Source of the DNA: a virus
Virus record (IMG/VR): IMGVR_UViG_3300030107_004029
Span: 1-30,992 of that record
Length of the DNA stretch: 30,992 nucleotides
Direction: 5' to 3' (one strand)
The translations under genes were made by a program, and so were the position numbers. Each line of letters starts with the position of its first letter. The stretch's first letter is position 1. The notes beneath the pieces were generated by a model. The model worked only from the letters and a program-made list of their open reading frames with translations, ran no database searches and was not told the DNA's origin. Positions 1 through 30,992 of this stretch are shown in pieces.

Positions 1-22
1 AATAGTAAAGCGCTGTGCTATA
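1..22. repeat. Left arm of a 22-bp inverted repeat
   Basis: Bases 1-22 are the exact reverse complement of 1088-1109. The core is TAAAGCGCTGTGCTATA here. The arm begins at the first base of the window, so it may continue outside it. Its inner end contains TATA of the -10 box of the first gene. The two arms bracket the first two genes. Confidence 0.85.
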
Positions 23-31
23 ATGGCAAGC
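19..31 (+). promoter_or_regulatory. -10 box of a likely leaderless promoter
   Basis: TATAAT lies at 19-24 and ATG at 32, seven bases later, so transcription should begin at or next to the start codon. The same geometry recurs before the genes at 1240, 1815, 2202 and 2886. The -35 region is outside the window. Confidence 0.5.
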
Positions 32-430
32 ATGATGAATACAAAACCTACTAATAAAATATCTGTCCTTTGTGACGGTGAACAATGGAGCGGCAGCCAT
101 AAAGCTAGCCAATATCTAGTATCCAATGAGCTGCAGGAGGATTTACAAAACGGCGTTAAACCGTACAATATTGAGAAAGATTATAAAGAGGGTGTAGACT
201 ATATAAAAGTTTATGCCGGAGATTTAGAAGAGACTCTTGATAGCGTTACGGATTTAATGGGCATAATGGCCGCATCTAATCCGAGCGAAAAAGAGAGAGG
301 CAGGCTTTTAGATATGATAGACAATATTAATACAATGGATTTACAGGAGCAGCTAGAATTATTTGAAGAAGATATAGCCAACGTTATGATGGAGAAACTA
401 TACCGCAAGTTGTCGGGGGGTGAAGCATGA
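32..430 (+). CDS. Hypothetical early phage protein (132 aa)
   Basis: I do not recognise this family. The protein is acidic and soluble in appearance, with a C-terminal half that looks helical and rich in Asp, Glu and Leu. No membrane segment, cysteine cluster or catalytic motif is visible. I chose the ATG at 32 rather than the in-frame ATG at 23. The ATG at 23 overlaps the -10 box, whereas 32 falls where transcription should start. No Shine-Dalgarno sequence precedes either start, which fits a leaderless message. The stop codon overlaps the next start (ATGA at 427-430), so it is translationally coupled to the GP88-like gene. The pair is flanked by a 22-bp inverted repeat. The reading frame is secure, the function unknown. 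Confidence 0.75.
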   Translation: MMNTKPTNKISVLCDGEQWSGSHKASQYLVSNELQEDLQNGVKPYNIEKDYKEGVDYIKVYAGDLEETLDSVTDLMGIMAASNPSEKERGRLLDMIDNINTMDLQEQLELFEEDIANVMMEKLYRKLSGGEA

Positions 431-1092
431 GCAAGCCTAAACTATCCGGCACGTCAAAGATGCCCTGTAAGTCTTGGAGCTTGCCCGCTTGGGAAACTTG
501 CCCTAGTGCCAAGGGTACAGATGGTAAACCTGTTGATGCATGCAGTAATTGTTACGCGTTGCAAGGTGCTTACCAATGGCCGGCCGCTAAAGCTTTGCGC
601 GCCTACAATTTAGAAAATTGGAAGCTTGATAATTGGGTAGATGATATGATTATTCTAATCACCAAAGAGGGCAAGCGAAATAAAAAGAATTTGTTTCGTT
701 GGTTTGACAGTGGCGATATCTATAAGAAAGAATTGGCTTTAAAGATTGAGCAAGTTATAAAAGGCACGCCGCAGGTCAAGCATTGGATACCGACTAGACA
801 ATACAAAGATGAAAAAGTAAGGCCTGTATTGGATAGAATAAATCAATTGCCTAATGCGGTAGCAAGATATAGCAGCGATAGCGTCAACGGTAAAATGTTA
901 GATTCTGATTTTAATTCGACCATAGCGCAGCATGCCGACGATATAAAATCTTCTAAGGGTGTGTTAGTATGCGGAGCTTATAGCCGGGGCGGCGAATGCC
1001 AAGATTGCAAGGCCTGTTGGGATAAGAGAGTTAATACTATTGTCTATCCCTTACATGGAAATAAAGTAAACGCAAAACAATTCGCGGTATAG
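427..1092 (+). CDS. GP88-like cysteine-rich phage protein (221 aa)
   Basis: The protein resembles the phage Gp88 family, first named from mycobacteriophages and of unknown biochemical function. What I see are two cysteine groups and two conserved blocks. The N-terminal group has CPSAKG at 25-30, then C39 and NCYA at 41-44 followed by GAY. The C-terminal group is C182, C191, C194 and C197, spaced like a metal or Fe-S cluster site. Between them are RWFDSGD (91-97) and HWIPTR (119-124), which resemble the conserved blocks of that family. It starts inside the stop of the upstream gene, with a G-rich Shine-Dalgarno sequence (GGGGGG) just upstream. Its stop codon lies within the right arm of the 22-bp inverted repeat. 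A terminator follows. Family assignment is from memory of motifs; a metal-cluster role is inference. Confidence 0.7.
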   Translation: MSKPKLSGTSKMPCKSWSLPAWETCPSAKGTDGKPVDACSNCYALQGAYQWPAAKALRAYNLENWKLDNWVDDMIILITKEGKRNKKNLFRWFDSGDIYKKELALKIEQVIKGTPQVKHWIPTRQYKDEKVRPVLDRINQLPNAVARYSSDSVNGKMLDSDFNSTIAQHADDIKSSKGVLVCGAYSRGGECQDCKACWDKRVNTIVYPLHGNKVNAKQFAV

Positions 1093-1109
1093 CACAGCGC
1101 TTTACTATT
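1088..1109. repeat. Right arm of the 22-bp inverted repeat
   Basis: This is the exact reverse complement of bases 1-22. It spans the stop codon of the GP88-like gene and lies just before its terminator. With the left arm it encloses a 1.06-kb two-gene segment. Confidence 0.85.
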
Positions 1110-1118
1110 TCATACAGG

Positions 1119-1146
1119 GTCGGCCATTAATTTGGTCGGCCTTTTT
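1119..1146 (+). terminator. Rho-independent terminator after the GP88-like gene
   Basis: GTCGGCCA (1119-1126) pairs with TGGTCGGC (1133-1140) to give 8 bp with two G-U pairs and a TTAATT loop. CTTTTT follows directly. The T run merges into the first GT-rich repeat. Confidence 0.8.
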
Positions 1147-1187
1147 GCTGTGGTGTGGTTAACTATTTGCTGTGGTGTGGTTAACTA
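1144..1187 (+). repeat. Tandem pair of the GT-rich early-gene element
   Basis: Two identical 22-bp units sit end to end at 1144-1165 and 1166-1187. Each has the core GCTGTGGTGTGGTTAAC, and the second continues into TAAGATC. Other copies of this element occur at 1730, 2126 and 2818, each upstream of an early promoter, with degenerate copies at 3267 and 3403. This is the only tandem copy. Confidence 0.9.
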
Positions 1188-1199
1188 AGATCAAGCCAC

Positions 1200-1239
1200 A
1201 CCATACCGTAGTAACCACAACGTATGGTATAATGTTGGC
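1200..1239 (+). promoter_or_regulatory. Leaderless promoter with an embedded dyad (gene at 1240)
   Basis: TATAAT is at 1228-1233, with six bases before the ATG at 1240. The inverted repeat ACCATAC/GTATGGT (1200-1206 and 1222-1228) occupies the -35 to -10 interval, where a repressor or regulator could bind. The -35 position (ACCGTA) is poor. Confidence 0.6.
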
Positions 1240-1725
1240 ATGAATGAACAAGACAAACTTATAACACCTAGTTATTCTGATATGAAAACTAGAATCACCA
1301 ATCACTTAGAAGACCATCCCGGTACTATAAAGGCATGCAATAAGAATCATGTCTCACCATATATGATGGCCACAAATTGGCTAACAGGATACACTCTAGA
1401 CCATGGCAAGGAAGCAGTCCAAGATTTGTGGGCTTACATCATGTACTCTTACGATGAGATGAAGGGGGATATATGCTCTGAATGTAATAGGCTTAAAGAT
1501 AAAGACCCTAGGCTACACGCTAGGTTTATTATGTTTGAAGATATATGTGTTGAGGGGTGGCCGTCACAAACCAAAGGCTTCTTTAAAAGGTGGGAAGCAT
1601 TCGTAGATACAGGAGATTGGTACGCTACGGTTCGGGTACAGGAGAACAGAGTTATGCCGGAGATTGAGAACATGAAGAAAGCAACAGACTCATTCTGTGA
1701 CAAATATATTAGAGCTGAAGAGTAA
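1240..1725 (+). CDS. Hypothetical early phage protein (161 aa)
   Basis: I do not recognise this family. The sequence looks soluble and mostly helical, rich in Trp, Tyr and acidic residues. It contains a CSEC pair near the middle and further single cysteines. There is no clear metal site, signal peptide or membrane segment. It is a monocistronic unit: a terminator and two repeats lie upstream, and a fresh repeat and promoter follow its stop. The ATG at 1240 is favoured because it lies exactly where a -10 box at 1228-1233 would start transcription. No Shine-Dalgarno sequence is present, so translation is probably from a leaderless mRNA. The gene is real by length and by its fit in the cassette; its role is unknown. 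Confidence 0.75.
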   Translation: MNEQDKLITPSYSDMKTRITNHLEDHPGTIKACNKNHVSPYMMATNWLTGYTLDHGKEAVQDLWAYIMYSYDEMKGDICSECNRLKDKDPRLHARFIMFEDICVEGWPSQTKGFFKRWEAFVDTGDWYATVRVQENRVMPEIENMKKATDSFCDKYIRAEE

Positions 1726-1729
1726 CTGT

Positions 1730-1753
1730 GCTGTGGTGTGGTTAACTGAGATC
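1730..1753 (+). repeat. GT-rich early-gene element, copy 3
   Basis: The core GCTGTGGTGTGGTTAAC is intact and is followed by TGAGATC. It begins five bases after the stop codon of the preceding gene, and no terminator hairpin separates them. Confidence 0.85.
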
Positions 1754-1779
1754 ATGAGTGGTTGGTCTAGCGTGCGCCG

Positions 1780-1808
1780 GGCTGACCACATTTTTAATAG
1801 GTTATAAT
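1780..1808 (+). promoter_or_regulatory. Leaderless promoter (gene at 1815)
   Basis: GGCTGA (1780-1785) lies 17 bases before TATAAT (1803-1808). Six bases then separate the -10 box from ATG. Related hexamers GGCAAC and GGCTAA stand at the same spacing before the genes at 2202 and 2886. Confidence 0.65.
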
Positions 1809-1814
1809 AGGGGT

Positions 1815-2078
1815 ATGAAAACTAAACAACAAGGAATTATAACCGTCGGTGATACCGTCATTTACAGAGGCAATTTTGGAAGGGGACATGAAGAGATTGT
1901 CAAAGTTACAAGCATGCAGCTACTTGAATATCCAAGAGATAAGATGAGCATTATAGAGCAAGATGCTCTTTGGTGTTCTTACGCACAGATACAGGAGAAC
2001 AGAATTATCTTTGATTTGGATAATAATAAATGGTGCTACGCCGAACAAATCGTCGGCAGGGTAGACATGGTAAGGTAA
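1815..2078 (+). CDS. Small hypothetical early protein (87 aa)
   Basis: I do not recognise this protein. It begins MKTKQQ and looks like a small beta-rich domain, with alternating hydrophobic residues in the segment IITVGDTVIYRG. That is compatible with an SH3-like or KOW-like fold, but the resemblance is only visual. An in-frame GTG at 1758 would extend the protein by 19 residues, but it lies upstream of the -35 and -10 boxes. The ATG at 1815 is at the predicted transcription start, and the MKTK start recurs in the genes at 2202 and 2886. No Shine-Dalgarno sequence precedes it. A good terminator follows at 2095-2121. Confidence 0.72.
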   Translation: MKTKQQGIITVGDTVIYRGNFGRGHEEIVKVTSMQLLEYPRDKMSIIEQDALWCSYAQIQENRIIFDLDNNKWCYAEQIVGRVDMVR

Positions 2079-2094
2079 CAATTTCAAACAGAAT

Positions 2095-2121
2095 TAAGCT
2101 CGCTTAACGGCGGGCTTTTTT
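2095..2121 (+). terminator. Rho-independent terminator
   Basis: AGCTCGC (2097-2103) pairs with GCGGGCT (2110-2116) through 7 bp including one T-G. Two outer A-T pairs extend the stem, the loop is TTAACG, and six T follow. The next repeat starts five bases downstream. Confidence 0.85.
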
Positions 2122-2125
2122 CTTT

Positions 2126-2141
2126 GCTGTGGTGTGGTTAA
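2126..2141 (+). repeat. GT-rich early-gene element, copy 4
   Basis: GCTGTGGTGTGGTTAA is intact, but the 3' part of the element (CTAAGATC in other copies) is replaced by TTACCATG. It is directly downstream of a terminator T run. Confidence 0.8.
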
Positions 2142-2166
2142 TTACCATGAACATCCACCACATCAG

Positions 2167-2195
2167 GGCAACACGCAAAATCGAGATGATACAAT
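2167..2195 (+). promoter_or_regulatory. Leaderless promoter (gene at 2202)
   Basis: GGCAAC (2167-2172) and TACAAT (2190-2195) are 17 bases apart. The -10 box is six bases before the ATG at 2202. A second ATG at 2196 touches the -10 box and is unlikely to be transcribed. Confidence 0.6.
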
Positions 2196-2201
2196 ATGCA
2201 C

Positions 2202-2423
2202 ATGAAAACTAAACACATAGAAGTACAACAAGTCTTAGACTTTTTAGATAAGGTCAAGCAACACATGGTGGCAACGCCTGAATCCTCTAAAGAGACAGCA
2301 GGCAAAGCGTCTTCTCAACACGACGTAGCCCTCTGTTGGATGATGCATAACGCCGCTATAGACCTAGCTTGTCACGCAATTGAAGCAGCTTCTTACGACG
2401 TGGAGGAGGAAGACAATGTCTAA
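2202..2423 (+). CDS. Small hypothetical early protein (73 aa)
   Basis: I do not recognise this protein. It is a short, probably helical polypeptide beginning MKTKH, with an acidic C-terminus (DVEEEDN). No domain or motif is evident. I prefer the ATG at 2202 over the ATG at 2196 for two reasons: it coincides with the predicted transcription start, and MKTK is the start used by two neighbouring cassettes. It is the first gene of a three-gene unit. Its last eight bases overlap the next gene, and its 3' end carries the Shine-Dalgarno sequence (GGAGGA) for that gene. The coding call is good, the function unknown. Confidence 0.7.
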   Translation: MKTKHIEVQQVLDFLDKVKQHMVATPESSKETAGKASSQHDVALCWMMHNAAIDLACHAIEAASYDVEEEDNV

Positions 2424-2601
2424 GAAATACACCTGCACTATTTGTAATCAAGTCAAGGAAGGCACGCCTGCAAAGGAATGGTTTAACATGGGAGAATTAA
2501 TGGAAGCTAGCAAGCGCAAAAAGAGAGGCATGAGTTATGAGAATCCTTTCAATAAAGAATGTAAGGACTGCTACGTCCCAAGGGAGGAGAAATTAGGATG
2601 A
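2416..2601 (+). CDS. Small zinc-ribbon-like protein (61 aa)
   Basis: The protein has an N-terminal CTIC pair (residues 6-9) and a C-terminal CKDC pair (about residues 48-51), separated by a basic, helical middle. This is the four-cysteine pattern of a treble-clef or zinc-ribbon fold, as found in many small phage DNA-binding or regulatory proteins. Zinc binding is inferred from the spacing. The ATG at 2416 is chosen because GGAGGA lies seven bases upstream; an in-frame ATG at 2380 would start inside the previous gene without such a site. It overlaps its upstream neighbour by eight bases and its downstream neighbour by four. It is therefore translated from the same message as the leaderless first gene. 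Confidence 0.72.
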   Translation: MSKKYTCTICNQVKEGTPAKEWFNMGELMEASKRKKRGMSYENPFNKECKDCYVPREEKLG

Positions 2602-2807
2602 ACAAAATAAACTTTAAACGTGAAGTATGGGAGGGGTGGACTGTAGGCGATTTTATTAAAAAGCTTGAGCTGCCTTGGCAATACAAAAAGTGGGATAATC
2701 CTACGAGGCAAGAAATGTCTAAATGGTTACGCGATGAGCAACCGTACTACAAAAAACATATCCCCGAAGTAGTGGCGTATTTTTGGGATAAATACCAAGG
2801 GGGCTAA
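2598..2807 (+). CDS. Small hypothetical basic protein (69 aa)
   Basis: I do not recognise this protein. It is basic and rich in Trp, Tyr and Lys. The segment WDNPTRQEMSKWLRDEQPYY could be helical and nucleic-acid binding, but that is only a guess from composition. The start overlaps the preceding stop (ATGA), with GGAGGAGAA just upstream as a Shine-Dalgarno sequence. It is the last gene of the 2202-2807 unit. Its TAA stop codon lies in the loop of a strong G/C hairpin. Confidence 0.72.
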   Translation: MNKINFKREVWEGWTVGDFIKKLELPWQYKKWDNPTRQEMSKWLRDEQPYYKKHIPEVVAYFWDKYQGG

Positions 2808-2814
2808 CGCCCCC
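2799..2814 (+). terminator. GC hairpin containing the stop codon
   Basis: GGGGGC (2799-2804) pairs perfectly with GCCCCC (2809-2814). The TAAC loop holds the stop codon of the preceding gene. No T run follows, so it may be a weak terminator or an mRNA 3'-end stabiliser. The next GT-rich repeat begins three bases later. Confidence 0.6.
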
Positions 2815-2817
2815 ACT

Positions 2818-2841
2818 GCTGTGGTGTGGTTAACTAAGATC
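2818..2841 (+). repeat. GT-rich early-gene element, copy 5
   Basis: This copy matches the second tandem copy through the core GCTGTGGTGTGGTTAAC and the following TAAGATC. It lies nine bases upstream of the -35 position of the next promoter. Confidence 0.88.
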
Positions 2842-2850
2842 TCCGCGCAG

Positions 2851-2879
2851 GGCTAATCCAAAATCCTCAATGATATAAT
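2851..2879 (+). promoter_or_regulatory. Leaderless promoter (gene at 2886)
   Basis: GGCTAA (2851-2856) and TATAAT (2874-2879) are separated by 17 bases. Six bases then lie between TATAAT and the ATG at 2886. A competing ATG at 2880 directly abuts the -10 box. Confidence 0.65.
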
Positions 2880-2885
2880 ATGAGC

Positions 2886-3197
2886 ATGAAAACTAAACGT
2901 AAATTTTTTAATCAAACCTATACTTTCTTTACGAGTCCTAATACGCCTCAAACATTCCTTGACAAGTTCGAGGAGAGAATTGAAGAATCAAAGATTGATG
3001 AGCAAAGCAAGGCAGAAATCATGGGATACTTTGACGACTTGGTCAATCACCATCACGAGTCTTGGAAATCTGCAGGTAGCTTTATGTACGCAGTAGTGAC
3101 GGGCAACTTCACTCATGCTGCAAGCAAGGCCGACCAAAGCAATTACGCACAGCTTGGCGAATACCTGAGACTGTGGGACAAGCTATCAGAAATCTAG
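2886..3197 (+). CDS. Hypothetical early protein (103 aa)
   Basis: I do not recognise this family. The protein starts MKTKRKFF and looks helical and soluble. Its acidic first half contains FEERIEESKIDEQ, and a histidine-rich patch (NHHHE) lies near the middle. Histidines alone are not enough to propose a metal site. It is a monocistronic cassette with its own repeat, promoter and probable terminator. The ATG at 2886 is preferred to the ATG at 2880 because of the -10 spacing and the shared MKTK start. It is the last intact plus-strand gene before the convergent late operon. Confidence 0.72.
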   Translation: MKTKRKFFNQTYTFFTSPNTPQTFLDKFEERIEESKIDEQSKAEIMGYFDDLVNHHHESWKSAGSFMYAVVTGNFTHAASKADQSNYAQLGEYLRLWDKLSEI

Positions 3198-3488
3198 TCT
3201 CCTTATGCGCCCGCCTGAGCGCTCCCCACAATCAGGCACCCCCCCCCACCCCCCATTTTTTTTTACCTGTGGTGTGGTTATATATGCCCTTTTATTTTTC
3301 CGCCAAAAAAAAGCGTATTCTTTACTATCCTGTATAAAGGTAATGCTCTACTGCCTGTTCTGCTTGATATGATGCCTCTGTTTGTAAGCCTTTCTAAAGC
3401 ACGCTGTGGTCACTGTGGCTATCGTGTGGTCTAATATGAGATCGCCCCTTGTAGCCCCCTTAAAAAGGTTCTGAGCGAAGGCTGTGGT
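3198..3488. other. Convergent spacer with a terminator and decayed repeat copies
   Basis: This spacer separates the early plus-strand genes from the end of the minus-strand late operon. GCCTGA (3213-3218) pairs with TCAGGC (3232-3237), and nine T at 3255-3263 follow a C-rich stretch; this probably terminates the early transcript. A repeat copy at 3267-3280 keeps CTGTGGTGTGGTTA. At 3403-3443 the parts GCTGTGGT, GTGTGGT and GAGATC are separated by extra bases, and GCTGTGGTCTA recurs at 3480-3490. TATAAA at 3333-3338 is followed by a nine-codon ORF. A 20-codon ORF starting at 3371 contains CGHC. I read these as remnants of a lost cassette. Confidence 0.55.
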
Positions 3489-5009
3489 CTATAGTCCCAT
3501 CCAATTGGGATTAGCCGGCTCGCCTATGCTTCTAGTATTAAGAATCGAGTCGAATTCTTTCTGCAATCTGTCCTCCCACTCCTTGTCCTTTGCCTTCTGT
3601 AGGTTGATAGCCATGTATTCCTGTATATGCCTAACGCCCATAGCCAAGCAATCAATATAATCATCATGCTTTAGTGACCCCTTCAGTGGAGTTATATTGC
3701 AAAACTGTGATATGCCTTTATTAAATAGGAAATCCTCCGAGACTACCACCTTGTGTTGGTTCAGGGCAGGCTCTAATGTAGTAATAATCCGCTTTTCCTT
3801 CTGAATATTATGGCGAATAGGGGTAATTGGTACGTTAATATTGGGCTGCAACAGGTGTAATATTAGGTCATCACCAAAATTAGTCTCTACAATTATCTCA
3901 TTTACCTTATATTTCTCTGCCAAATCCCTGATATCCCCGACTCTTGATCCTGCAAAGCCGTCCCAATGCCCCTGTTCTAGGACAAATACAAAGCCATTCC
4001 TAGTAGCTAGGACACAATAAGCAAAGTCATCCGCACCTGAACCTGCAGGGTCAAGAGCTATAATCTTTTTAGTGTACTCAACCTTCACCCCTTTATGGCC
4101 TGCGTACATAGGCTTGTCTCCACCCTTGGCTTCGGCAACAAATCTCTTTAAAGGATTCGTGGTTTGATAGTATTCTTCGTAACAATAGTATGGGTCTAAG
4201 TTGCTGCACACTAACAGGTCTGACAACTTCAATGGGAATTTGTCTTTGTCTGCTAGGCTAGTATCTAGCATATATTGCAGCATAAACGCTGTGTCCCCCA
4301 TGCCCCTTCTACGCTTCTCTAAGATCTTGGCAGGAAATCTATCAGGTTCAGTAGAGTTTCCCTCACTGTCATAGCATGGATACTTGTAAACCTTGTACCC
4401 TTTAGCAGGCAAAGCATTGTATATCGAGCTACTTGAGTGGGGCGTTCCTAGATATATAATCCTTCCCTTGGGCAGCAAGACAGCTTCAAATTCTGTAGCT
4501 AAGTTCTGTAGTTTTTCCCTACTCTCTGCACTCATAGAGTTAACACTTATCTCCAAGTCATCACAAATTATTATATTTGCACGGCTGCCTGTTATTTGCG
4601 CACCAATACTTTTTGCTGTAAGCGATGGAGTTTGGGAAGGCACACATCCACTAATGTCAAAGGAATAAGAAAGGTTTCTTTGCCCCTGTTGAGGCAGCAA
4701 ATGGGACAAGAATGGACACACATTAATAGTATCCTTGCAAAACTTTACAAACTCTGCAGCCCTCTTAGCTGTAGCAGAAACAATCAGAACCTTTTCATCA
4801 GGATTGTGATACAAAAGCCATAAGCTTCCTAGTGCAGAAATGTGAGACTTGCCGCAACCCCTAAATGCTTGGACAGCTTCTCGGCTTTCACCGCTTTGAA
4901 ACCTATCAGCGATCTTGTATTGAAGAGGAGTAGGTTCGGGAAGACCAATAAACTTGTGACACAAGAATAAAAAGTTCCTGAAATCTGTTAAGTCTTCCCT
5001 AAGTCTCAT
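3489..5009 (-). CDS. Terminase large subunit (packaging ATPase/nuclease)
   Basis: This is the motor that translocates DNA into the prohead and cuts the concatemer. At 506 residues it is somewhat shorter than T7 gp19. The ATPase half has a Walker A motif AFRGCGKS (48-55), a Walker B motif IIICDD (146-151) and the coupling motif GTP (188-190). The nuclease half has a first acidic strand IIALDPAGSG (D320), then IVETNFGDD (E375) and LKHDDYIDCLAMG (D449/D450/D453). This is the RNase H-like set of acidic residues seen in terminases. Its start overlaps the stop of the small upstream gene (TAATG). It is the last gene of the 23-kb late operon. Bases 3531-3607, coding for about residues 468-493, reappear inverted at the right end of the window. 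Confidence 0.95.
   Translation of the reverse strand: MRLREDLTDFRNFLFLCHKFIGLPEPTPLQYKIADRFQSGESREAVQAFRGCGKSHISALGSLWLLYHNPDEKVLIVSATAKRAAEFVKFCKDTINVCPFLSHLLPQQGQRNLSYSFDISGCVPSQTPSLTAKSIGAQITGSRANIIICDDLEISVNSMSAESREKLQNLATEFEAVLLPKGRIIYLGTPHSSSSIYNALPAKGYKVYKYPCYDSEGNSTEPDRFPAKILEKRRRGMGDTAFMLQYMLDTSLADKDKFPLKLSDLLVCSNLDPYYCYEEYYQTTNPLKRFVAEAKGGDKPMYAGHKGVKVEYTKKIIALDPAGSGADDFAYCVLATRNGFVFVLEQGHWDGFAGSRVGDIRDLAEKYKVNEIIVETNFGDDLILHLLQPNINVPITPIRHNIQKEKRIITTLEPALNQHKVVVSEDFLFNKGISQFCNITPLKGSLKHDDYIDCLAMGVRHIQEYMAINLQKAKDKEWEDRLQKEFDSILNTRSIGEPANPNWMGL
3531..3607 (-). repeat. 77-bp segment duplicated in inverted orientation at the window end
   Basis: These 77 bases inside the terminase gene are the exact reverse complement of 30916-30992, the last 77 bases of the window. 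Identity stops sharply at the next base. The sequence belongs here, since it completes the terminase reading frame. Confidence 0.95.
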
Positions 5010-6226: not shown

Positions 6227-6732
6227 TATGTGTTATTCTCAAAGACCGCAAAGGTTACTGACTCAGAGTCATCTGATAAACTGTTAGACGCATCTCGGAT
6301 TGCGATGTTAAAGCCTGTAGCTGCTATAGAACTAGCCGAACAAGTCATAATAGTTCCTGCAGAATCCTCATAGGAAATTAAAACTGTGTAATTTACTGTA
6401 GTCATGTCGGTATCAATTACCACGCTATACTGCCCTGTTCCTCCCCTAGATACCGAGGCTACGTTGTAGCTAGTACCCAACAATGCAGGGCTTGCTACAG
6501 TAGTAAACCTACCAAACGCTTTAGGTATGAACTGCATCTTAGCTTCTAGTGCAGCGATCCTAGCTTCGTATCCTGACAGGCCTGCAGGCAAAGCTGCTAC
6601 TGCTGTATTCATAGTACTAAGGTTTACCGCTCCTGTAACAGTTATATAATCTGTCTTTTCCTCTACGCTAGTAAGCCTTTCGTCTGACATAGCATATCCT
6701 GCTTGAATGTTAGGGTGATTAGGACTACTCAT
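6226..6732 (-). CDS. Short tail-fibre-like protein (168 aa)
   Basis: The protein sits between the giant ejection protein and the lysis genes, the slot of the T7 tail fibre gene 17. Its first 75 residues look like a short trimeric coiled coil (repeated hydrophobics in DERLTSVEEKTDYI and ARIAALEAKM). The C-terminal half is a beta-rich domain, with FTTVASPALLGTSYNVASVS resembling C-terminal domains in phage fibres. No T7-type N-terminal attachment domain is seen. At 168 residues it could not form a long fibre, so it may be a short spike, an adaptor or a receptor-binding tip. It overlaps the end of the upstream gene by eight bases. Call by position and composition. Confidence 0.6.
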   Translation of the reverse strand: MSSPNHPNIQAGYAMSDERLTSVEEKTDYITVTGAVNLSTMNTAVAALPAGLSGYEARIAALEAKMQFIPKAFGRFTTVASPALLGTSYNVASVSRGGTGQYSVVIDTDMTTVNYTVLISYEDSAGTIMTCSASSIAATGFNIAIRDASNSLSDDSESVTFAVFENNT

Positions 6733-9700
6733 TAAAAACCTCTATTGTGTAATCATTTTCTTTTTGATTTAATCTTCCCTTTCTCATAGACTCTAATCTT
6801 GGTACTGTTCCTGTTTGATCGTTTAATCTTGCTTTAAGAACCTCGTCAAGACTTTCGCCATCTTTGTTTGTAACTTGTTTAACCCAACCAAATCTGCTTG
6901 CAAAGAGTTGAGTATTTCTATTACTAAAATTTGTAATTACGCTATTTGTTTTATCAGTAAACCTTGTCCTTATAGAGGCTAGTTGAGTTTCAATTTTATT
7001 TCTAGCATTTAAGCCATCATCATAAATGTCTCGATTAATTTGCCTTCTATATTTACTCATAACTTTCTCATATGGTTCAGGAGATTTTTTCTTATTAGCA
7101 ATTAAAGTTGTTAAGTCAAATCTTTCTTGATCGCTAACAGTCTTATTGTTTTTATCTTTAGCCCAATCCCAAACTTTTTTATCTGTCCACGTTTTAGTAC
7201 TGTTTGAAAGAGGATTTATTAAAGTGTGTTTAGTTACTTCACCACCAATATCATAAGTATCCCACCCTTTTATTCTCATAGCTGCATTGTAATCAGATAT
7301 AAATTCGTCAGTTAAAGTGTAAAGAAAAACTTCGCCCATAAGATTGACTGTTTTCTTATTGTTAATTAATAAATGATTTATCTTGGGGTCTGCTGCTACT
7401 TTGTTGTAAACTTTTTGATCTGCTAAATAGTTTGATTCTATTTTCAAATCTCCCATAGAGGTATGATACCACTCGTATCCATTAAAAATATTTCCTTCTC
7501 CAAACTCTTCACCCTCTACTATCTCCATTTCAAAGTCTCTTAAGTTTATATCTTCAAGAACATGAGCGCCGCCTGTATTAAATTTAGGCTCATAAGGCTG
7601 CAACAACTCAAGGTCTAAATCAAGAACTAATTTGTCAAAAGTATCGCTATATACTGTTTTTTTACCAAGCCAAAAAGTTTCCGGTGTATACTCGTCTTTA
7701 CCAACAGGAAGAGAAATGTAATTCAGATGAACAGGCAGCCTGTCAACTGTAGGATCAAAACCAAATACTCCATATTCTACAATTGGAGCCTTCATAATTT
7801 GAGCCATAGTTTTGCTCATTCCTTTAGTGTCATAAACAACATTGCCCCTTGTATCTGTTACATCTTTATAAAGACCTACACTAGGAGTTAAAACAGCGTC
7901 ATTCATAAATGAAGAAAAAAGATTGTCTAAAGAAGCATTGTTTCCAAAGTCATAAATGTTCATTGCCAAATCAAAAGGAAAGCTAGAAATATTTTCGTAA
8001 TAAACATTTGTTGATAATTTTGCAACATCTTCTACAAAATTAGTCTCTAACAATTCTTTAGATTTAAATCTTGGACTGTATTTGTTTATTGCCCAATCAG
8101 TTCTAACACCTGAGAAAAGCATATTAGATGCAGCTCCTGCTCTATCAAAAGTCATAGTTGAACCACCTCCTTTAGCAGGGGCAAAGAAAGCCCAAACTCT
8201 ATCTTCTATCCAAGCATCCTTTTGTTCTTTTGTAACAATGTAATATGTTTTTCCTTCAGCATCTTTTGTTTCTGTCATATAAGAATAATCTCCTCTTTCA
8301 AGACCGTCATTCTTTATTTTATAATCTAGCATTTCCGGAGACTGACTCCATCTTTTCAAAAAATATTCTTTACAATCTTCCACAGATTCTCTAACTTGAA
8401 GAGCTACGTCTTCTTGCCCCGGAAATATTCTTGAAGGCACTGTCGTAAAAGCCCTTTGAACAAATTCTTTTATTGGCTTGCCTTGTTCATCATAACCAAC
8501 TATTTCAGTCTCATCTTTTTTGTAACCTACGTTACGGTTTATCACAGCCCCTATACCAATAATTGCCATAGAAGCTTGAAGTTTCCCTAAAGCATTTGCT
8601 TTAACTGCAGGAGATGTATCAAATCTGTCTCTGAACAAGTACTCTTGTAACTGTCCTAGGATAGGAATTCTTTCAGTTCCAAAAGTCATAGTGTTTGCTG
8701 CAGTTCTACCAAACCTTCCAAAAAAACCAAAATTTCTATCCGTTGAAACATTTGCAAAAAATTTCGCTATACCATAATCTTCATTTTGCATGGTAAGTTC
8801 TTCCATTCTTGATCTAGCTCTATTGTCAGCGGCGTACATTAATTCAAGAACATTTTTATTTGCAGTAGCTACGTCAGAATCTATTACTTCCAAGCCTACA
8901 TATTCTTTATACCTTTCCATTGCGTAAGGGCTAGAATTAACTATATCAAATTCAGGAGTTCCTTCTTTTGGTATTTCTTTACTGCTAGCCCACAAGCCCA
9001 TTCTGTTTTTCATCCAAGCATCTTGAGAAACATTTTGACCTAAAATTCCTTGCGCTCTAAGCTGATTCCATTCCTGCAAAGCAAAGAACATTTCTTTAAC
9101 CAAGTCCATTCCCTCTTCAGAATTTATGTCTAAAACTTTTTTACCTGATTTTACCTGTTCCATCGCCATGCCTGTAATCTCTTTTAATATTTCAGCCATG
9201 TGAGGCTTGCCACCAAAACCTTTTGTAAAACGGTCAACAGTATTTGCCATGCCATGTCTTGCGCTAAGTTCTTGGATACTTGCTAGCACCATTAAAATGT
9301 CTTTCTTTATACTCTTGTCCATTTCTGCAATAATCATTGTAGGGTTAGTAATTCCATGGACAGGAACATCTAATGCAGGATTGTTAAACATTTCAATAGG
9401 AGGGTTAGAAGGGTCGTTAACATCAACCACTTTGCCTTGACCTGTTTTACCTGTTAACTCTTCAAATGTTTTAGCCCTAGCCTGATTATCAGTAGCAGGT
9501 ACAAGCAATCTTAACAATCTATCTAGCCAACTATATTCCGACTTTAAGGGAAGGTTGTATTGTTTTTTTAGTTCTTTATATTTTCTACCCATTATAGGTC
9601 TAATATCATCGAACCTAGGATCTTGTGAAACTTCATCAAAAAACTTAAGATAATTTTTAGCCCAAACTCGAACCTCATTACTTGCAATAGGGTTTGCATC

Positions 9701-12700
9701 ATTAGCTAAAGCTCTTATTGATACTTTGTCCCACCAATATCTAGGGTATTTAAATATACCTCCACCTGTTGCTGCAGCCGACAAGGTGCCAATACTAGAA
9801 ACTAGTCCTGAATTGCCAAACGAAAGCATTGCTGCTTGAATTCTAGGCGCTGATAAAAATGGATTTTGCCAACTAATTTTTCTATTAACTGATCTATCTT
9901 TTAATATAGTGTCAGTGTCAAACAAATCCCTTAATGCTTTTACTTGATCGCTAGATGGCGTGCCATATTCATCAGCTTCTTTTACAAGAACATCACCAAA
10001 AAACTTAACATAGTGTTCAGCACTGTAACGTCCCTTGTTTCTATTTCTTTTAGACCACTCAACCATTTGGTCATCAGTTGCTTTTGCGGAAGGAGGAAGC
10101 ATTTGTCTAATTACTTTCTGCTTACCTGATATTGCTTCAGGGGTTCCGTCAATTATATGTTGCAAAATTTCTTGTTTAGCTTTTTGTCTTTGATACAACA
10201 TAACAGCTGATTCAAAACGAGCAGCTTCAACACTGCTTGGTTGAGAACCTTCTGCAACCCAACGCTGATAAGTTGTTATCATTCTTCTAGCAGCTCTGTT
10301 TAATTTATCTTCAATACCTTGTAAACTTTTTGCAGCCTGTTCAGCAGTATCAAAATTTTCTAAATTATTAAACTCTTTAGTTTCTTCAGCATCTTCTATT
10401 CTTGCTCGCCGTTCTTCTGCCTGTTTAGCATTTACATCTTGTTCCTTTGCAGACAGCTTAGGCGTTCTTGTTTGTTTAGGCTCAGATACAGCTTCTACCT
10501 TAGGCTCAGTTGCAGGGTCAACTTTAGTTTCAAGTTCTTCTGCAAATTCTCCACTGCGCACTTTTTCAACGTGATCGTCAATAGCTTTTGTAGCGACATC
10601 GTACCAATCTTTTTCTTTCCAAAGTTTATTATTTTTACCTATAGGCACACCTATTAAAGAAACTAATTCTTTTAACTGAGTTTTTGCACCTCTTTCTGTA
10701 GGATCAAGCGCTCTATAATTCCAAGGCCAAAGATTTTTTAACGCGTCATTGTTTATAATATTATCTAACAAATTAATTCCTGCATCTTCTAATCCTAATT
10801 TTGCGTATCTACTAGCAGCTTCTTCACTTACACCTGACTTTAATGGAACATATCTTTCGCCTTCTCCAAATCTTTTTATAGCACCTTCCCCTAATTCTTC
10901 TATTTGTTCGTCGGTGTACCCTTCTTCTTTTAATTTCTTTGCTAACTGCTGCTGTTTTTTAACTAGCTTATTCATTCTTGTTTTAGCTGAAAAGTTATTA
11001 ACTTGAGCGTCAAGCTCTAATTTTTGTGCCTGTAAAATTATATTTGTAAAACTTTCTTCTAAATTCATAGCGCCGTTATTTAAAACTTTAGCTATTTCTG
11101 CAGGAGAAGTAAACATACCAACCTCTCCTGTAATCATAAGACCTCTGCTTTCAGCAATCTCTCTTAAATCTTCAGGAGAAGATTCTAAATGATTATAAAT
11201 AGGTCTTTCATAATCTGCTTCTCTTTGAGCAGCAGTTTTTTCAGGCTTAACTTCTTTTGGTTTGTCTTTAAATTTAGATTCAAATTCAGGGTACTTACTT
11301 TTAATTTTTTCTAAATATTTTGCTTTAGCTTTTCCTTCTAATGTTTCAATATAGTCATGGACTATAACAGCTTCTTTAGTTTCAAGAGCTGTTTTTCCTT
11401 CTATAGGAATACCTCTTTCAGCTGCAGCTTTTTTAACACCATCTCTAGATAAACTGTTTATTTTTTCTTCAATTGGTTTTAATTTCTTTTTATTAGCAGC
11501 AGTTCGCGCAACGTCCCAAGGAGATACGCCTCCTGTGATTCTTGCCATTTCTCTTGATTCCCTTACAGTATGTTCTGCTAGTTCTTCAGAAAGCTGTGTT
11601 TTGTTTTTCTTGTTGGCAGCGGATTTGCTTACTCCGAATACATCTACATATTCATCAACTAATTCTGATTTCTTTAGTTCAAACTTGGCTTCAAATTCAA
11701 TATCAAATTCAGCAGCCTCTCTTAATATTATTGCCTCATCACTAAAAGATTGCATTTCAATCTCTTTTGCTGTTGGTAATTTAATTGGTTCTCCTTTTCC
11801 GCCACCACCAAAACGAACAAATCCACCTTGGTTTTTTCTAGCGTTATGTAGATTGTCCATAGATTGTCTATATTCAAAGGCACTTTTATTTTTTCTTAAA
11901 TCATAATAGCCCTCTGTCCTTTCTAGAAAATCGTACAAAGATTCATTAGGATCAAATTTTCTCCATTCTTCAGGGTCAATAAGATTTTGGTTTTTAATAG
12001 CTTGTCGCCTTACGTTCATCGCAGATTCAAGCCTGCTTATACTTCTTTCAATTTGTGCTTTAGTTAATTTTTGTGGATTGTGTTGACGTTTTCTCCAATT
12101 ATTATTTTCAAGCAAAGATTCCATTTCTCTAAGACCGTGAACCGCCTGATTCCAAGAATCGTAAAGGTGGTATATGCCTTCTCTTCCTGCACCTCTTTGT
12201 CCTGATGCTCTACCTATAGGAATTCCCCTTTCCGCCATCTCTTGATACATGGCTGCTTGAGTAAGTCTTAATTGCTTTAACTCTTCTTTTGTTCCTACTA
12301 AATCTTGTCTGCCCGTTAACAAATCATTAATTTTGCTATTAACAACAGACAATGCTTTGTAAGCTCCATCATGTGCTGAATCAAAAATCTTGTCAATGTT
12401 GTCCCTAATAGTCTCGTGATACTCAGCAGCTATACTTCCTTTCCCTTTTCTTGAACCTTTAATTGCTTTAGATGCTGCATGAATATGATCAAAAAACATA
12501 TCAAGAGAACCTATTGAGTAGGCTTTATTTATAATTTTCTTAGCATTTGCTGCGTATATTGCTTTAGCTCTTTTAGCCGCTTCAGGATCAAGTTTAAGTT
12601 CGCTAACTACATAATCAATAAGTTGACCACCTGCTTTAGCAGACTTAATTGAACCTTTTGCAATACCTGTTAGTGCCATAGCAGTTACTAAAAGAGGAAC

Positions 12701-14710
12701 GCCTAAAGCTTTAGGAACAATTCTAGACATAGCTTCGCCTTCAATTGCTCCTGCAAAAGCTCTTTTAAATGCAACATCTTCTGCTTTATTTGACATTAAC
12801 TTTAGCACAGCATTGTCTGAAAGAAATTCGTCGATGTGCTTGCCTACACCTTCTCCAATAAAACTTGAAACAACTCTTGCCCCACCCATTTCTCTTATCA
12901 TATTTGCAATGTTAGGCTCTCTAGGATTCAATACAGACAAAACAGCATCGCCTACTAAAGTGTTAAATCCTACAGTCCCTGCTCCCTTAAGACTTCTTGC
13001 AGCTAAAGCAACTTGAAGAGGTATAGTCATCCAAGCGCCCATTTCTGAACTCCAATGCATATCGTATGATTGTCCCGGTTTTCCTGCAACTACAACAGGA
13101 GCGCTAATGTTTGCAAGATCTCCAACCTTATATGCCCACTGATTGTTTGTTGCTGACCACCAACCTTCTCCCATTTCTTTTCCTTCATGGGGAGCAACTC
13201 TTTTAACATAATCATCAACAGCTTCTTTGTTGGGATACAAAGCAAATGGTTTTAATTCCATAAGCTTTTCAAGCTCTTGATCTTTCTGCTCATTAGTTAA
13301 TTCCTGAACTTTTTCTTCGACATTTAAGCCTAATTCAGTTGCAGATTTAGCTAAAAGAGAAGGTCGGGGTATTGTTCCATTTTCATATGCTTCATAAGCA
13401 GAAGCCATATTGTCTAGATAATAATCATATAGATTAGTATTAAGTATTTCTTCCATAAAACCGTTTTCAACAGAAAATTGTTTTATATGTTCTTCATTGT
13501 CAGGGTCAAACCCTCCAAGTTTAAAAGAAAAATCTTGGTAAATTAAAGTTTTTACTATGTCTTCTTTTTTCTTTTGTTCTAAATTTGGTGAAAAAAAGTT
13601 TGTTTTTTCTAATTCCTGAACAACATCGGCAACGCTTCGACTAATAATTCCACCAAGCCTAATGTTGCCTACAGTGTCTTTATTGTTGTCGGTAATACTT
13701 TTCATAATTATTTCAGCAAAACCATTTGGACTTTCTTCATAATTCCACCTAACGTCTTTTATAAAACGCTCATGTTTTTTTATAGGATTCATCAACCTAT
13801 ATTCAGGGTTTTTACTATTAAGAAATTTACCTCTAGGTTTATAATTTGGGTCTATTGTCCCTGCAGCTGCTATTCTTTCATTCTCCTCTTCAATACTTTC
13901 GTTGTACCAATTTCTAACATTTCTGTTTTCGTCATCAATTCCTCTACCTCTTTGTGCAAGCATTTCTTCCGTTCTGTCAAGATCGGCAAGAGTTTTAGGA
14001 TCAACAGGTTCACCTGTGCCAACAAGATTTACAACCTCTTGAGCGCCCTCAAGACCTCTTCTCATTTCATCTCTTACTTGTTGAGTGGTTTTGTCAGGGT
14101 CTTTTGTAGAAACATATTCGTCTGAGCCATACAACCTTTCCATCTCTGCTAATTCTTCAGGAGTATACTGAGAAGTTATTCTTGCATCTCTAATCATTTC
14201 TGAAGAAATCCATTGCGCTCTTTTTGAATGAGTTTTAGAGTAAATGTTAGGAAGTCCTTGCTTATTAACTACAACTTCTCTTGAAGCCCTTTCCCAATCA
14301 TCGTTGTTAACAGCATCAATAAAATTAGTAAATCCTCTTTTAGGATCAGTAAATCTTGTAAGTCCAAAATTGTAAGCAAAATTTACAATAGCTTCTCTTT
14401 TGTGATGAGGTATAGTTTCCCAATTTTTAAACAATGCAGCAGTTTCAGGTATCGCAACATCGTTTACATATTCGTGAAACCTTCTTAACGCTTCCTCCTC
14501 TGTTATTTTTTCACCTTCAAAAGATTTTGTTCCTCCTCCAATTGAATAACCACCTTCTTGTCCGGGGTCAGGGTAGGCTTCTAAAGTTTGGCTTAAATCA
14601 TGAGTTTCAAATTCAAGGATTTTTTTAAGTCCTTTTTCGCTCATTGTAAATGGTTCAGAACCTTGTTGCTTTACAGGGTCTTGATTGTTATCGTTTAGTC
14701 CGTTTGCCAT
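6725..14710 (-). CDS. Giant ejection protein with an N-terminal lysozyme-like domain (2661 aa)
   Basis: This is the counterpart of T7 gp16, the internal virion protein that enters the envelope to help the DNA cross, but it is about twice as long. Residues 24-175 resemble a GH24 (T4-type) lysozyme. E35 is a candidate catalytic acid, AYPDPGQEGGYSIGGG (45-60) corresponds to the AYxDxxGxxTIGxGH motif, and REAIVNFAYNFG is the second conserved block. The Asp (D48) is four residues further from the Glu than usual, and Ser56 replaces Thr. T7 gp16 instead carries a lytic transglycosylase. The remainder is mostly helical and charged, with Lys/Glu-rich stretches and a few hydrophobic segments (for example VPLLVTAMALTGIA and ASMAIIGIGAVI) that could line an ejection channel. 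Its start is three bases after the previous stop. Confidence 0.88.
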   Translation of the reverse strand: MANGLNDNNQDPVKQQGSEPFTMSEKGLKKILEFETHDLSQTLEAYPDPGQEGGYSIGGGTKSFEGEKITEEEALRRFHEYVNDVAIPETAALFKNWETIPHHKREAIVNFAYNFGLTRFTDPKRGFTNFIDAVNNDDWERASREVVVNKQGLPNIYSKTHSKRAQWISSEMIRDARITSQYTPEELAEMERLYGSDEYVSTKDPDKTTQQVRDEMRRGLEGAQEVVNLVGTGEPVDPKTLADLDRTEEMLAQRGRGIDDENRNVRNWYNESIEEENERIAAAGTIDPNYKPRGKFLNSKNPEYRLMNPIKKHERFIKDVRWNYEESPNGFAEIIMKSITDNNKDTVGNIRLGGIISRSVADVVQELEKTNFFSPNLEQKKKEDIVKTLIYQDFSFKLGGFDPDNEEHIKQFSVENGFMEEILNTNLYDYYLDNMASAYEAYENGTIPRPSLLAKSATELGLNVEEKVQELTNEQKDQELEKLMELKPFALYPNKEAVDDYVKRVAPHEGKEMGEGWWSATNNQWAYKVGDLANISAPVVVAGKPGQSYDMHWSSEMGAWMTIPLQVALAARSLKGAGTVGFNTLVGDAVLSVLNPREPNIANMIREMGGARVVSSFIGEGVGKHIDEFLSDNAVLKLMSNKAEDVAFKRAFAGAIEGEAMSRIVPKALGVPLLVTAMALTGIAKGSIKSAKAGGQLIDYVVSELKLDPEAAKRAKAIYAANAKKIINKAYSIGSLDMFFDHIHAASKAIKGSRKGKGSIAAEYHETIRDNIDKIFDSAHDGAYKALSVVNSKINDLLTGRQDLVGTKEELKQLRLTQAAMYQEMAERGIPIGRASGQRGAGREGIYHLYDSWNQAVHGLREMESLLENNNWRKRQHNPQKLTKAQIERSISRLESAMNVRRQAIKNQNLIDPEEWRKFDPNESLYDFLERTEGYYDLRKNKSAFEYRQSMDNLHNARKNQGGFVRFGGGGKGEPIKLPTAKEIEMQSFSDEAIILREAAEFDIEFEAKFELKKSELVDEYVDVFGVSKSAANKKNKTQLSEELAEHTVRESREMARITGGVSPWDVARTAANKKKLKPIEEKINSLSRDGVKKAAAERGIPIEGKTALETKEAVIVHDYIETLEGKAKAKYLEKIKSKYPEFESKFKDKPKEVKPEKTAAQREADYERPIYNHLESSPEDLREIAESRGLMITGEVGMFTSPAEIAKVLNNGAMNLEESFTNIILQAQKLELDAQVNNFSAKTRMNKLVKKQQQLAKKLKEEGYTDEQIEELGEGAIKRFGEGERYVPLKSGVSEEAASRYAKLGLEDAGINLLDNIINNDALKNLWPWNYRALDPTERGAKTQLKELVSLIGVPIGKNNKLWKEKDWYDVATKAIDDHVEKVRSGEFAEELETKVDPATEPKVEAVSEPKQTRTPKLSAKEQDVNAKQAEERRARIEDAEETKEFNNLENFDTAEQAAKSLQGIEDKLNRAARRMITTYQRWVAEGSQPSSVEAARFESAVMLYQRQKAKQEILQHIIDGTPEAISGKQKVIRQMLPPSAKATDDQMVEWSKRNRNKGRYSAEHYVKFFGDVLVKEADEYGTPSSDQVKALRDLFDTDTILKDRSVNRKISWQNPFLSAPRIQAAMLSFGNSGLVSSIGTLSAAATGGGIFKYPRYWWDKVSIRALANDANPIASNEVRVWAKNYLKFFDEVSQDPRFDDIRPIMGRKYKELKKQYNLPLKSEYSWLDRLLRLLVPATDNQARAKTFEELTGKTGQGKVVDVNDPSNPPIEMFNNPALDVPVHGITNPTMIIAEMDKSIKKDILMVLASIQELSARHGMANTVDRFTKGFGGKPHMAEILKEITGMAMEQVKSGKKVLDINSEEGMDLVKEMFFALQEWNQLRAQGILGQNVSQDAWMKNRMGLWASSKEIPKEGTPEFDIVNSSPYAMERYKEYVGLEVIDSDVATANKNVLELMYAADNRARSRMEELTMQNEDYGIAKFFANVSTDRNFGFFGRFGRTAANTMTFGTERIPILGQLQEYLFRDRFDTSPAVKANALGKLQASMAIIGIGAVINRNVGYKKDETEIVGYDEQGKPIKEFVQRAFTTVPSRIFPGQEDVALQVRESVEDCKEYFLKRWSQSPEMLDYKIKNDGLERGDYSYMTETKDAEGKTYYIVTKEQKDAWIEDRVWAFFAPAKGGGSTMTFDRAGAASNMLFSGVRTDWAINKYSPRFKSKELLETNFVEDVAKLSTNVYYENISSFPFDLAMNIYDFGNNASLDNLFSSFMNDAVLTPSVGLYKDVTDTRGNVVYDTKGMSKTMAQIMKAPIVEYGVFGFDPTVDRLPVHLNYISLPVGKDEYTPETFWLGKKTVYSDTFDKLVLDLDLELLQPYEPKFNTGGAHVLEDINLRDFEMEIVEGEEFGEGNIFNGYEWYHTSMGDLKIESNYLADQKVYNKVAADPKINHLLINNKKTVNLMGEVFLYTLTDEFISDYNAAMRIKGWDTYDIGGEVTKHTLINPLSNSTKTWTDKKVWDWAKDKNNKTVSDQERFDLTTLIANKKKSPEPYEKVMSKYRRQINRDIYDDGLNARNKIETQLASIRTRFTDKTNSVITNFSNRNTQLFASRFGWVKQVTNKDGESLDEVLKARLNDQTGTVPRLESMRKGRLNQKENDYTIEVFNE

Positions 14711-26212: not shown

Positions 26213-26379
26213 TATTGGTTCTCCTCTAAATCTTTTAAATGTGTAAGTATTGAATTCTTTCCTGCTTCGTACATAATATTTTCTATTGTATCTTTAGGGC
26301 TAGGAGGAGTATAACCTACAATAAGTTCAAGATACTTTATTAAGTCTTTACTAATAAAGGGTTTATCTAATTCTTCCAT
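26212..26379 (-). CDS. First gene of the late operon, hypothetical (55 aa)
   Basis: This short ORF begins MEELDKPFISKDLIKYLELI and ends LEENQ. It is acidic and mostly helical, with a PPSP turn in the middle. It is supported by TAATG coupling to the next gene, by the Shine-Dalgarno sequence (GAGGAG) it carries for that gene, and by AAGGA upstream of its own ATG. I do not recognise it. It is the promoter-proximal gene of the minus-strand operon. Confidence 0.6.
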   Translation of the reverse strand: MEELDKPFISKDLIKYLELIVGYTPPSPKDTIENIMYEAGKNSILTHLKDLEENQ

Positions 26380-26656
26380 AAGTAGCCGTATTCCTTTTTA
26401 AGGAGGGTTATTGTAGCCCTTTTTAAAAGGGTTAAAAGGTAATCCGCAAACCTTATATAAGGTGCGCGTAAGCGCAGTCTAGTCTCCTGAGAAAGCTTGT
26501 CAAGAACTTTCGCTTTATTTTTTGAAAATAGTAAATAAAAAAAAAGTAAAGAAATTACTTGATATATAGTAAAGTATCTATAAGATGGGTGGAACTAATC
26601 GGCAGAGGAGACTCTGTCATACTCAATTTTAACAACAATATTTTACTATACTTACT
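26380..26656. promoter_or_regulatory. Divergent control region between the late and DNA-metabolism operons
   Basis: This 277-base spacer feeds the late operon leftward and the gene at 26657 rightward. I see a perfect 14-bp palindrome ACCTTATATAAGGT (26450-26463). It is followed directly by a hairpin TGCGC/GCGCA with a GTAA loop (26463-26476). There is also a 7-bp hairpin GGCAGAG/CTCTGTC with a GAGA loop (26601-26618), and the imperfect direct repeats CCTTTTTAAGGAGGGTTA and CCCTTTTTAAAAGGGTTA. TTGACA is present on the minus strand, but no -10 box stands at the right distance. TACTAT (26644-26649) lies seven bases before the rightward ATG. The middle is A-rich. Confidence 0.5.
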
Positions 26657-30604: not shown

Positions 30605-30985
30605 ATGCCTAAAAAGGAATTACTGTTTACTATTAAGGTTCTTAGTGTTCCTGTAAAGGTGTTGTTAGTTGAGTATGGGGATGAGGAGGACGCGGTATTC
30701 GGACAATATGATTCTGAAACTTTTGAAATAGAACTGAACAGGCGTTGTTCTTCCCATCTCCACCTTCAAATAACCATTTTGCATGAGCTTTTACATTGCT
30801 GTGCAGATCTTCTCGGCATAGATAACCTCTCTCATAAGGATATTTACTCTTTATCTCAGGCTTTATTTGGGATACTTTCAGATAATCCCCAACTTGCCTA
30901 TTGGTTTTACGACGTTCAACCTACAGAAGGCAAAGGACAAGGAGTGGGAGGACAGATTGCAGAAAGAATTCGACTCGATTCTTAA
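30605..30985 (+). CDS. HELLH metallopeptidase-like protein with a chimeric 3' end
   Basis: Residues 58-64 (ILHELLH) are a zinc-metallopeptidase HExxH motif with H60, E61 and H64. They follow a beta-rich N-terminal half ending FEIELNRRC. The layout resembles small ImmA/IrrE-like or SprT-like phage proteins; the third zinc ligand cannot be placed. The real sequence runs to about residue 103. From base 30916 the DNA is the inverted copy of the terminase gene, read in a frame that is not the terminase frame, so the last 23 residues are artificial or the product of a rearrangement. The true C-terminus is unknown. It may be leaderless. Confidence 0.55.
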   Translation: MPKKELLFTIKVLSVPVKVLLVEYGDEEDAVFGQYDSETFEIELNRRCSSHLHLQITILHELLHCCADLLGIDNLSHKDIYSLSQALFGILSDNPQLAYWFYDVQPTEGKGQGVGGQIAERIRLDS

Positions 30986-30992
30986 TACTAGA
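30916..30992 (+). repeat. Inverted 77-bp copy of the terminase gene at the window end
   Basis: This is the exact reverse complement of 3531-3607, with a sharp boundary: the base before it differs. It runs to the last base of the window. A perfect, short overlap of this kind at a contig tip fits a de Bruijn graph overlap or an amplification chimera better than a biological repeat. Confidence 0.95.

Follow-up and report, generated by a model that had tools for sequence, protein, structure and literature searches.

The stretch of viral DNA analysed here, which comprises all 30,992 nucleotides (nt) of the IMG/VR record IMGVR_UViG_3300030107_004029 and is called the window below, carries within positions 1–3280 a row of small genes on the + strand. 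The subject of this work is the promoter-like box that stands directly in front of the start codon of five of them. These are the open reading frames (ORFs) 1 (32..430, 132 aa), 3 (1240..1725, 161 aa, without a known family), 4 (1815..2078, 87 aa), 5 (2202..2423, 73 aa) and 8 (2886..3197, 103 aa), all with a putative leaderless start. Three internal genes lie between them, namely a member of the GP88 family (PF17338, E 3e-30) at 427..1092, ORF 6 (2416..2601, 61 aa) and ORF 7 (2598..2807, 69 aa). Here, all features are on the + strand unless stated otherwise.

The boxes (TATAAT or TACAAT, the strict form) are found at 19–24, 1228–1233, 1803–1808, 2190–2195 (the only TACAAT) and 2874–2879. The distance d, counted as the nucleotides between the end of the −10 box and the A of the ATG, is 7, 6, 6, 6 and 6 for the ATGs at 32, 1240, 1815, 2202 and 2886, respectively, which agrees with the positions and the spacing given in an earlier note on this DNA. 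Four of the five boxes are directly preceded by TGN and are therefore of the extended −10 type, namely TGGTATAAT (1225..1233), TGATACAAT (2187..2195), TGATATAAT (2871..2879) and the box of gene 32 with its TG at 16–17; TGN is missing at the TATAAT of 1803. On the + strand of the whole window the pattern TGN-TA[TC]AAT occurs four times, each time as the box of one of these starts, and the single occurrence on the − strand is unrelated to them. The best −35 match within 15–19 nt of a box reaches only 2–4 of 6 positions (box 19 is not assessable), and judged by sequence only the boxes qualify as −35 independent.

By dinucleotide shuffles, a strict box at d=6 or 7 is expected with a chance of ~0.002 per start. 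It was observed at all five starts, or at no fewer than two of two (≥2/2) when the three related modules are counted as one and gene 32 is disregarded (p ~4e-6). At no other gene of the window was a strict box found at d=6–7; two further box sites with d=6 both lie inside the gene for a 2661-aa protein. This protein is encoded at 6725–14710 and has no PHROG match.

A Shine-Dalgarno sequence at a usable distance was not found at any of the five starts; at 1815, a single nucleotide separates an upstream AGGGG from the ATG. Such a sequence is present before the internal genes 427 (GGTGA, Shine-Dalgarno-like), 2416 (AGGAGG) and 2598 (AGGAG), and inspection of the upstream sequences bears out the earlier statement on both groups, as it does for the N-terminus MKTK common to the products starting at 1815, 2202 and 2886. 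Transcription starts are typically pyrimidine-purine, and the nucleotide preceding the ATG is a pyrimidine at all five starts (C, C, T, C and C), in keeping with the A of the ATG as the first transcribed base. The first 50 nt of the mRNAs would be nearly unstructured (−1.7 to −4.4 kcal/mol) and have A/C-rich starts; leaderless translation is reported to benefit from little structure and from CA repeats close to the start codon (PMC9031893).

The codon score supports the frames of all five genes and is highest in frame for 1240, 1815, 2202 and 2886, as well as for ORF 1. The coding signal starts at the ATG. Conserved coding sequence upstream of the chosen starts is named in the earlier note as a finding that would contradict it; at 1815, the in-frame extension (1758–1814) has a negative codon score, as expected of non-coding DNA.

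The same layout is found with complete promoters in other phages. In a comparison set of 111 other phage loci (1.15 Mb), which had not been chosen for promoters, the distances from strong −35/−10 sigma-70 promoters to the ATG group at 6, 7 and 9 nt, followed by a trough and a second group at ~23–35 nt and beyond. The promoters at d=6–7 amount to 16 cases, all within five loci with at least two each, and scrambled-hexamer controls gave none at this distance. Both modes reappear in a larger locus set that had been selected in part by the promoter pattern and from which the selected sites were excluded. For Lactococcus cremoris, too, RNA data are reported to show two classes of leader length, separated by a gap from 4 to 14 nt (PMC10986495).

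One such row was seen in locus L134 (G009; contig 3300006789_000027), where eight genes within 3.7 kb (35.1–38.9 kb) start 6–7 nt after a −10 box that has a TTGACA-like hexamer 16–17 nt in front of it; the terminase of this phage is T4-like. Similar rows are present in L138, L139, L140, L136 and L137, in which TTGACA-N16/17-TATAAT ends 6, 7 or 9 nt before the ATG; in several of these contigs the row includes GP88. Named phages, when searched with the L139 promoter module, gave short chance matches only. Tandem cassette contigs found in this work are IMGVR_3300006789_000027, 3300017705_000681, 3300025066_001357, 3300030382_003995 and 3300044984_002188. Like the window, these five have short genes arranged in rows, and every gene has its own promoter, with a −10 box ending 6–7 (or 9) nt before the ATG; two of them also carry a repeat upstream of the promoters (CTGCCATTTTGGCAG), and four carry GP88 homologues. 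In contrast to the window, they have a TTGACA-like −35, and the one terminase examined is T4-like and not T7-like. The window lacks the −35, has mostly extended −10 boxes and shows a 17-nt repeat upstream of each of four modules.

The GP88 gene serves as an internal control. It is internal and led by a Shine-Dalgarno sequence in the window, L045 and L121, and it starts directly behind a TTGAC-N17-TATAAT-like promoter in L050, L048, L049 and L134. The N-termini of the proteins are shared (MSKPKLSGTSKM vs. MKSSPKISNASK or MKASPKLSNASK). Hence the ATG that directly follows such a box can be a genuine protein start, and one and the same gene can change between the Shine-Dalgarno-led and the leaderless mode.

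The repeat TGCTGTGGTGTGGTTAA, invariant over 17 nt, precedes each of the four modules 1240, 1815, 2202 and 2886 by ~50–70 nt, and counted from TGTGG its distance to the ATG is 69, 83, 74 and 66 nt, respectively. It stands mostly directly behind a terminator-like hairpin or a gene end. Copies 1 (1146..1162) and 2 (1168..1184, followed by CTAAGATC) lie behind a terminator-like stem with a T tail (1116..1143), copy 3 (1729..1745) behind ORF 3, and copy 4 (2125..2141) behind a second such stem (2096..2117). Copy 5 (2817..2833, again followed by CTAAGATC) lies behind a GC-rich GGGGGC-GCCCCC hairpin at the end of ORF 7 (2799..2814), which is terminator-like on the − strand only and has no T run on the + strand. 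A sixth and partial copy, TGTGGTGTGGTTA (3268..3280), has no cassette behind it; just in front of it, the stretch 3239–3266 between the last cassette and the terminase contains C runs and T runs. The hexamer TGTGGT occurs 15 times on the + strand, always between 1149 and 3488 and nowhere else in the 31 kb. In L045, seven TGTGGT/ACCACA, mostly on the opposite strand, lie in a comparable gp88-terminase stretch.

With up to six mismatches allowed, neither the − strand nor the upstream region of any late gene of the window holds a copy of the repeat, so that it would not be a general phage promoter, and its role as a promoter of a phage RNA polymerase was rejected. An activator site at a fixed helical phase was rejected as well, since the distances of −69, −83, −74 and −66 do not fit; for a simple activator role, the spacing varies too much. 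An exact scan of viral contigs for TGTGGTGTGGTTAAC gave 22 single matches, estimated to be no more than chance, and none with two copies. The repeat is probably, and this is a guess, either a binding site of a predicted regulator or a mark left by the copying of modules. In L134 and L139, the palindromic repeat CTGCCATTTTGGCAG lies between the cassettes at a place comparable to that of the TGTGGT repeat, and by this analogy cassettes may commonly be separated by repeats, which would be either regulator sites or recombination seams.

Taken together, the four genes 1240, 1815, 2202 and 2886 most likely carry host sigma-70-type promoters placed for leaderless mRNA, and for these four the leaderless reading of the sequence is the best one and well supported. 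The data show the layout, its statistical excess and its counterpart with complete promoters in other phages, and from these we infer the transcription start, leaderless translation and the use of the host polymerase. The region ~1100–3200 would thereby be a row of small independent transcription units in a phage with T7-like virion genes. The sigma-70-type RNA polymerase of the host would transcribe the four genes from −10 boxes, three of them extended and all without a −35, and RNA synthesis would begin at the A of the ATG to give leaderless mRNAs. 70S ribosomes would initiate on these without a Shine-Dalgarno sequence, and the downstream genes of a unit (2416 and 2598) would be translated from their ordinary Shine-Dalgarno sequences.

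Several points weigh against this picture. The −35 is missing throughout, and gene 1815 lacks the TGN as well. This −35-less form was not seen in other loci, where extended −10 sites without a −35 were found at d=6–7 from an ATG in 0 of 76 cases (111 other loci), although the contrast with the four + strand TGN-TA[TC]AAT sites of the window, all of them at these starts, also counts in favour of a special placement here. Other in-frame ATGs lie right behind the box at 2196 and 2880. The cassette rows are absent from the close relatives, which were found by capsid and terminase (L035-L043, L045 and L119). The modules 1815, 2202 and 2886 share sequence by copying, and the five cases are therefore not fully independent. 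Finally, the box at 19–24 lies half inside a 22-nt inverted repeat of the contig tip.

The latter point concerns gene 32. Positions 1–22 are an exact inverted copy of 1088–1109 at the 3′ end of gp88, and since the TATA falls into this inverted repeat at the contig tip, the box of gene 32 is weak evidence. Should the tip be chimeric, or show an inverted structure in one of its states, gene 32 would be left without an established promoter. Of the earlier claim that all five promoters are placed for leaderless mRNAs, the part on 1240, 1815, 2202 and 2886 is retained and the part on gene 32 is not. The right tip (30916–30992) repeats the terminase end (3531–3607) exactly over 77 nt in inverted orientation, and both tips fit one layout, in which a unit 23–1087 is flanked by inverted copies of 1088–3607. 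The related contig L045 has a similar tip at the same place (1–34 vs. 2125–2158) with a different sequence. Of 510 other locus ends, 2 carry an inverted tip of at least 18 nt. The tips may reflect an invertible segment, long inverted repeats or chimeras.

How the modules came to resemble each other leads to one of two competing explanations that are both judged unlikely. In part, the modules 1815, 2202 and 2886 are duplicates of each other (families D2 and D3): they have blocks in common at the repeat and at box-ATGAAAACTAAAC, and their three genes start with MKTK. According to this proposal, a single promoter-plus-start module would have arisen once and then been duplicated, so that its recurrence would say little on selection for leaderless mRNA. 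Nevertheless, the stretch from repeat to box differs in length and sequence among the modules, and the hexanucleotides that separate box and ATG have diverged (GTTGGC, AGGGGT, ATGCAC and ATGAGC for 1240, 1815, 2202 and 2886), yet box, spacing and ATG were kept. Gene 1240, furthermore, lacks the MKTK block and stands outside of it.

The second explanation, to which we give the same low weight, accepts leaderless mRNAs and places them under a phage-made switch. Here, the −35-less extended −10 boxes would form a middle class of promoters, active once a phage protein blocks or replaces the contacts of sigma region 4 and aided by a protein bound at TGTGGT. The missing −35, the TGN in three of the four modules and the confinement of the + strand TGTGGT copies to the cassette region would fit. 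A precedent is Thermus phage P23-45, whose middle and late promoters are of the extended −10 type and are less affected by gp39, which blocks −10/−35 promoters (PMC7403470). On the other hand, no such regulator was identified in the window, and the repeat-to-box distance is inconstant and does not follow helical turns. Moreover, extended −10 promoters can act without helpers.

A wider version of this idea is somewhat less probable still. It holds that leaderless cassette arrays are a distinct recurring strategy of unrelated phages, of which the window would contain the −35-less version, that a phage-made regulator would switch the whole array via the TGTGGT repeats, and that 70S ribosomes would read the mRNAs when normal initiation is disturbed.

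A start further upstream is quite improbable. Transcription would then begin at the 17-nt repeat, used either as a promoter of a single-subunit phage polymerase or through a weak −10 of its own, leaders would measure ~45–65 nt, and the boxes would only be AT-rich unstructured landing sites for ribosomes. The invariance of the repeat in four modules and its place right behind hairpins or gene ends would agree with this, as would the T7-like phage LUZ100, where a conserved 17-bp motif characterizes the phage-specific promoters (PMC10134795). Against this stand the lack of copies before late genes or on the − strand, which a phage promoter needs, and the absence of a T7-type RNA polymerase gene from the window and the close relatives searched, which are fragments. 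Furthermore, the distance from repeat to ATG varies between 66 and 83 nt and that from box to ATG is fixed, the resulting leader would be without a Shine-Dalgarno sequence, and other phages pair the same box-to-ATG spacing with a full TTGACA at 16–17 nt. A chance origin of the boxes from AT-rich DNA beside ATGs, in which TATAAT-like words are common, is refuted by the dinucleotide-shuffle statistics given above, was rejected and is practically negligible.

The type of the phage has been described in the earlier note as T7-like. This is upheld by the T7-type terminase, portal and capsid genes of the window, as in an Autographiviridae-like phage. A single-subunit T7-type RNA polymerase (PF00940) is absent from the window and from the close relatives searched, all of which are incomplete fragments. 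No relatives of the proteins of ORF 3 (1240) and ORF 8 (2886) were found, nor DNA relatives of 1–3300 in the phage collection. A host search with the capsid gave no homologue in bacterial genomes, and a search of these for GP88 yielded one Halieaceae metagenome-assembled genome (MAG) with a Shine-Dalgarno-like GAGGT before the start, which is uninformative for the host. A pattern scan for relatives of the 26657 gene gave none, though homologues exist in L038 and L039. In these two relatives, the operon led by this gene (26379–26657; L038 2340–2680; L039 6675–6960) has a TTGACA-like promoter of the conventional kind and a ~70-nt leader; a Shine-Dalgarno sequence stands before the ATG in L038 and L039, and none in the window. 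Beyond the homologue of o30605 in L119, a methyltransferase-like gene (16632) has an ATG preceded at 6 nt by TATGAT, which as an isolated case is about at chance level.

Leaderless genes with a −10 box at the start have been defined in bacteria as TA-led by a TANNNT some 12 bp ahead of the start codon (Zheng et al., 2011, PMC3160421), and in Deinococcus a −10 motif next to the ORF has been documented as a working promoter (PMC12340547). The genes of the window have two hallmarks of such genes at the sequence level, a box at d of about 6 which would place +1 on the start codon, and no Shine-Dalgarno sequence. They differ from the bacterial cases by their presence in a phage, the run of cassettes, the near-consensus TATAAT, mostly with TGN, and the shared upstream repeat. 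The earlier statement that they are unusual for a Gram-negative host was too strong, since Acidobacteria, delta-proteobacteria and some gamma-proteobacteria are predicted to contain such genes (PMC3160421) and other phages have leaderless arrays as well.

Among phages, the extended −10 class of the middle and late promoters of P23-45 (PMC7403470) resembles the boxes described here. This phage belongs to another family, and no counterpart of gp39 or gp76 was identified in the window. Its middle and late mRNAs are reportedly leaderless, a result attributed to Berdygulova et al. in 2011. The start-associated sequences SAS and ESAS of cluster K mycobacteriophages (PMC11373665) also combine a short conserved sequence at many gene starts with an upstream module of promoter and repeated motif. 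In contrast to the −10 box of the window, the SAS contains and extends past the ribosome-binding site 3–9 bp from the start; the array is not a member of this class (PMC11373665), because the start-adjacent element differs.

In T4-type phages, a terminator hairpin followed by a promoter is found between small accessory genes and has probably spread by copying. Mobile promoter-stem-loop cassettes of this kind are said to have been described by Arbiol et al. in 2010, a study cited in PMC4177764. The likeness is one by description; the window has two + strand terminator-like stems (1116 and 2096), the third hairpin being without a + strand T run, and its modules were copied, whereas leaderless starts and the 17-nt repeat are features of the window. 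Leaderless mRNA has mostly been discussed for particular bacteria or single phage genes, and in the literature searched, which was covered in part, no description of leaderless cassette arrays in phages was found.

Judged by their sequence layout, leaderless rows are uncommon, yet they recur among phages and appear to be a means of expressing small genes. For annotation, this means that gene callers demanding a Shine-Dalgarno sequence may misplace or miss such small genes. The presence of these rows in unrelated phage types suggests a modular addition of small genes that would do without a ribosome-binding site and consist of a box, six bases and an ATG.

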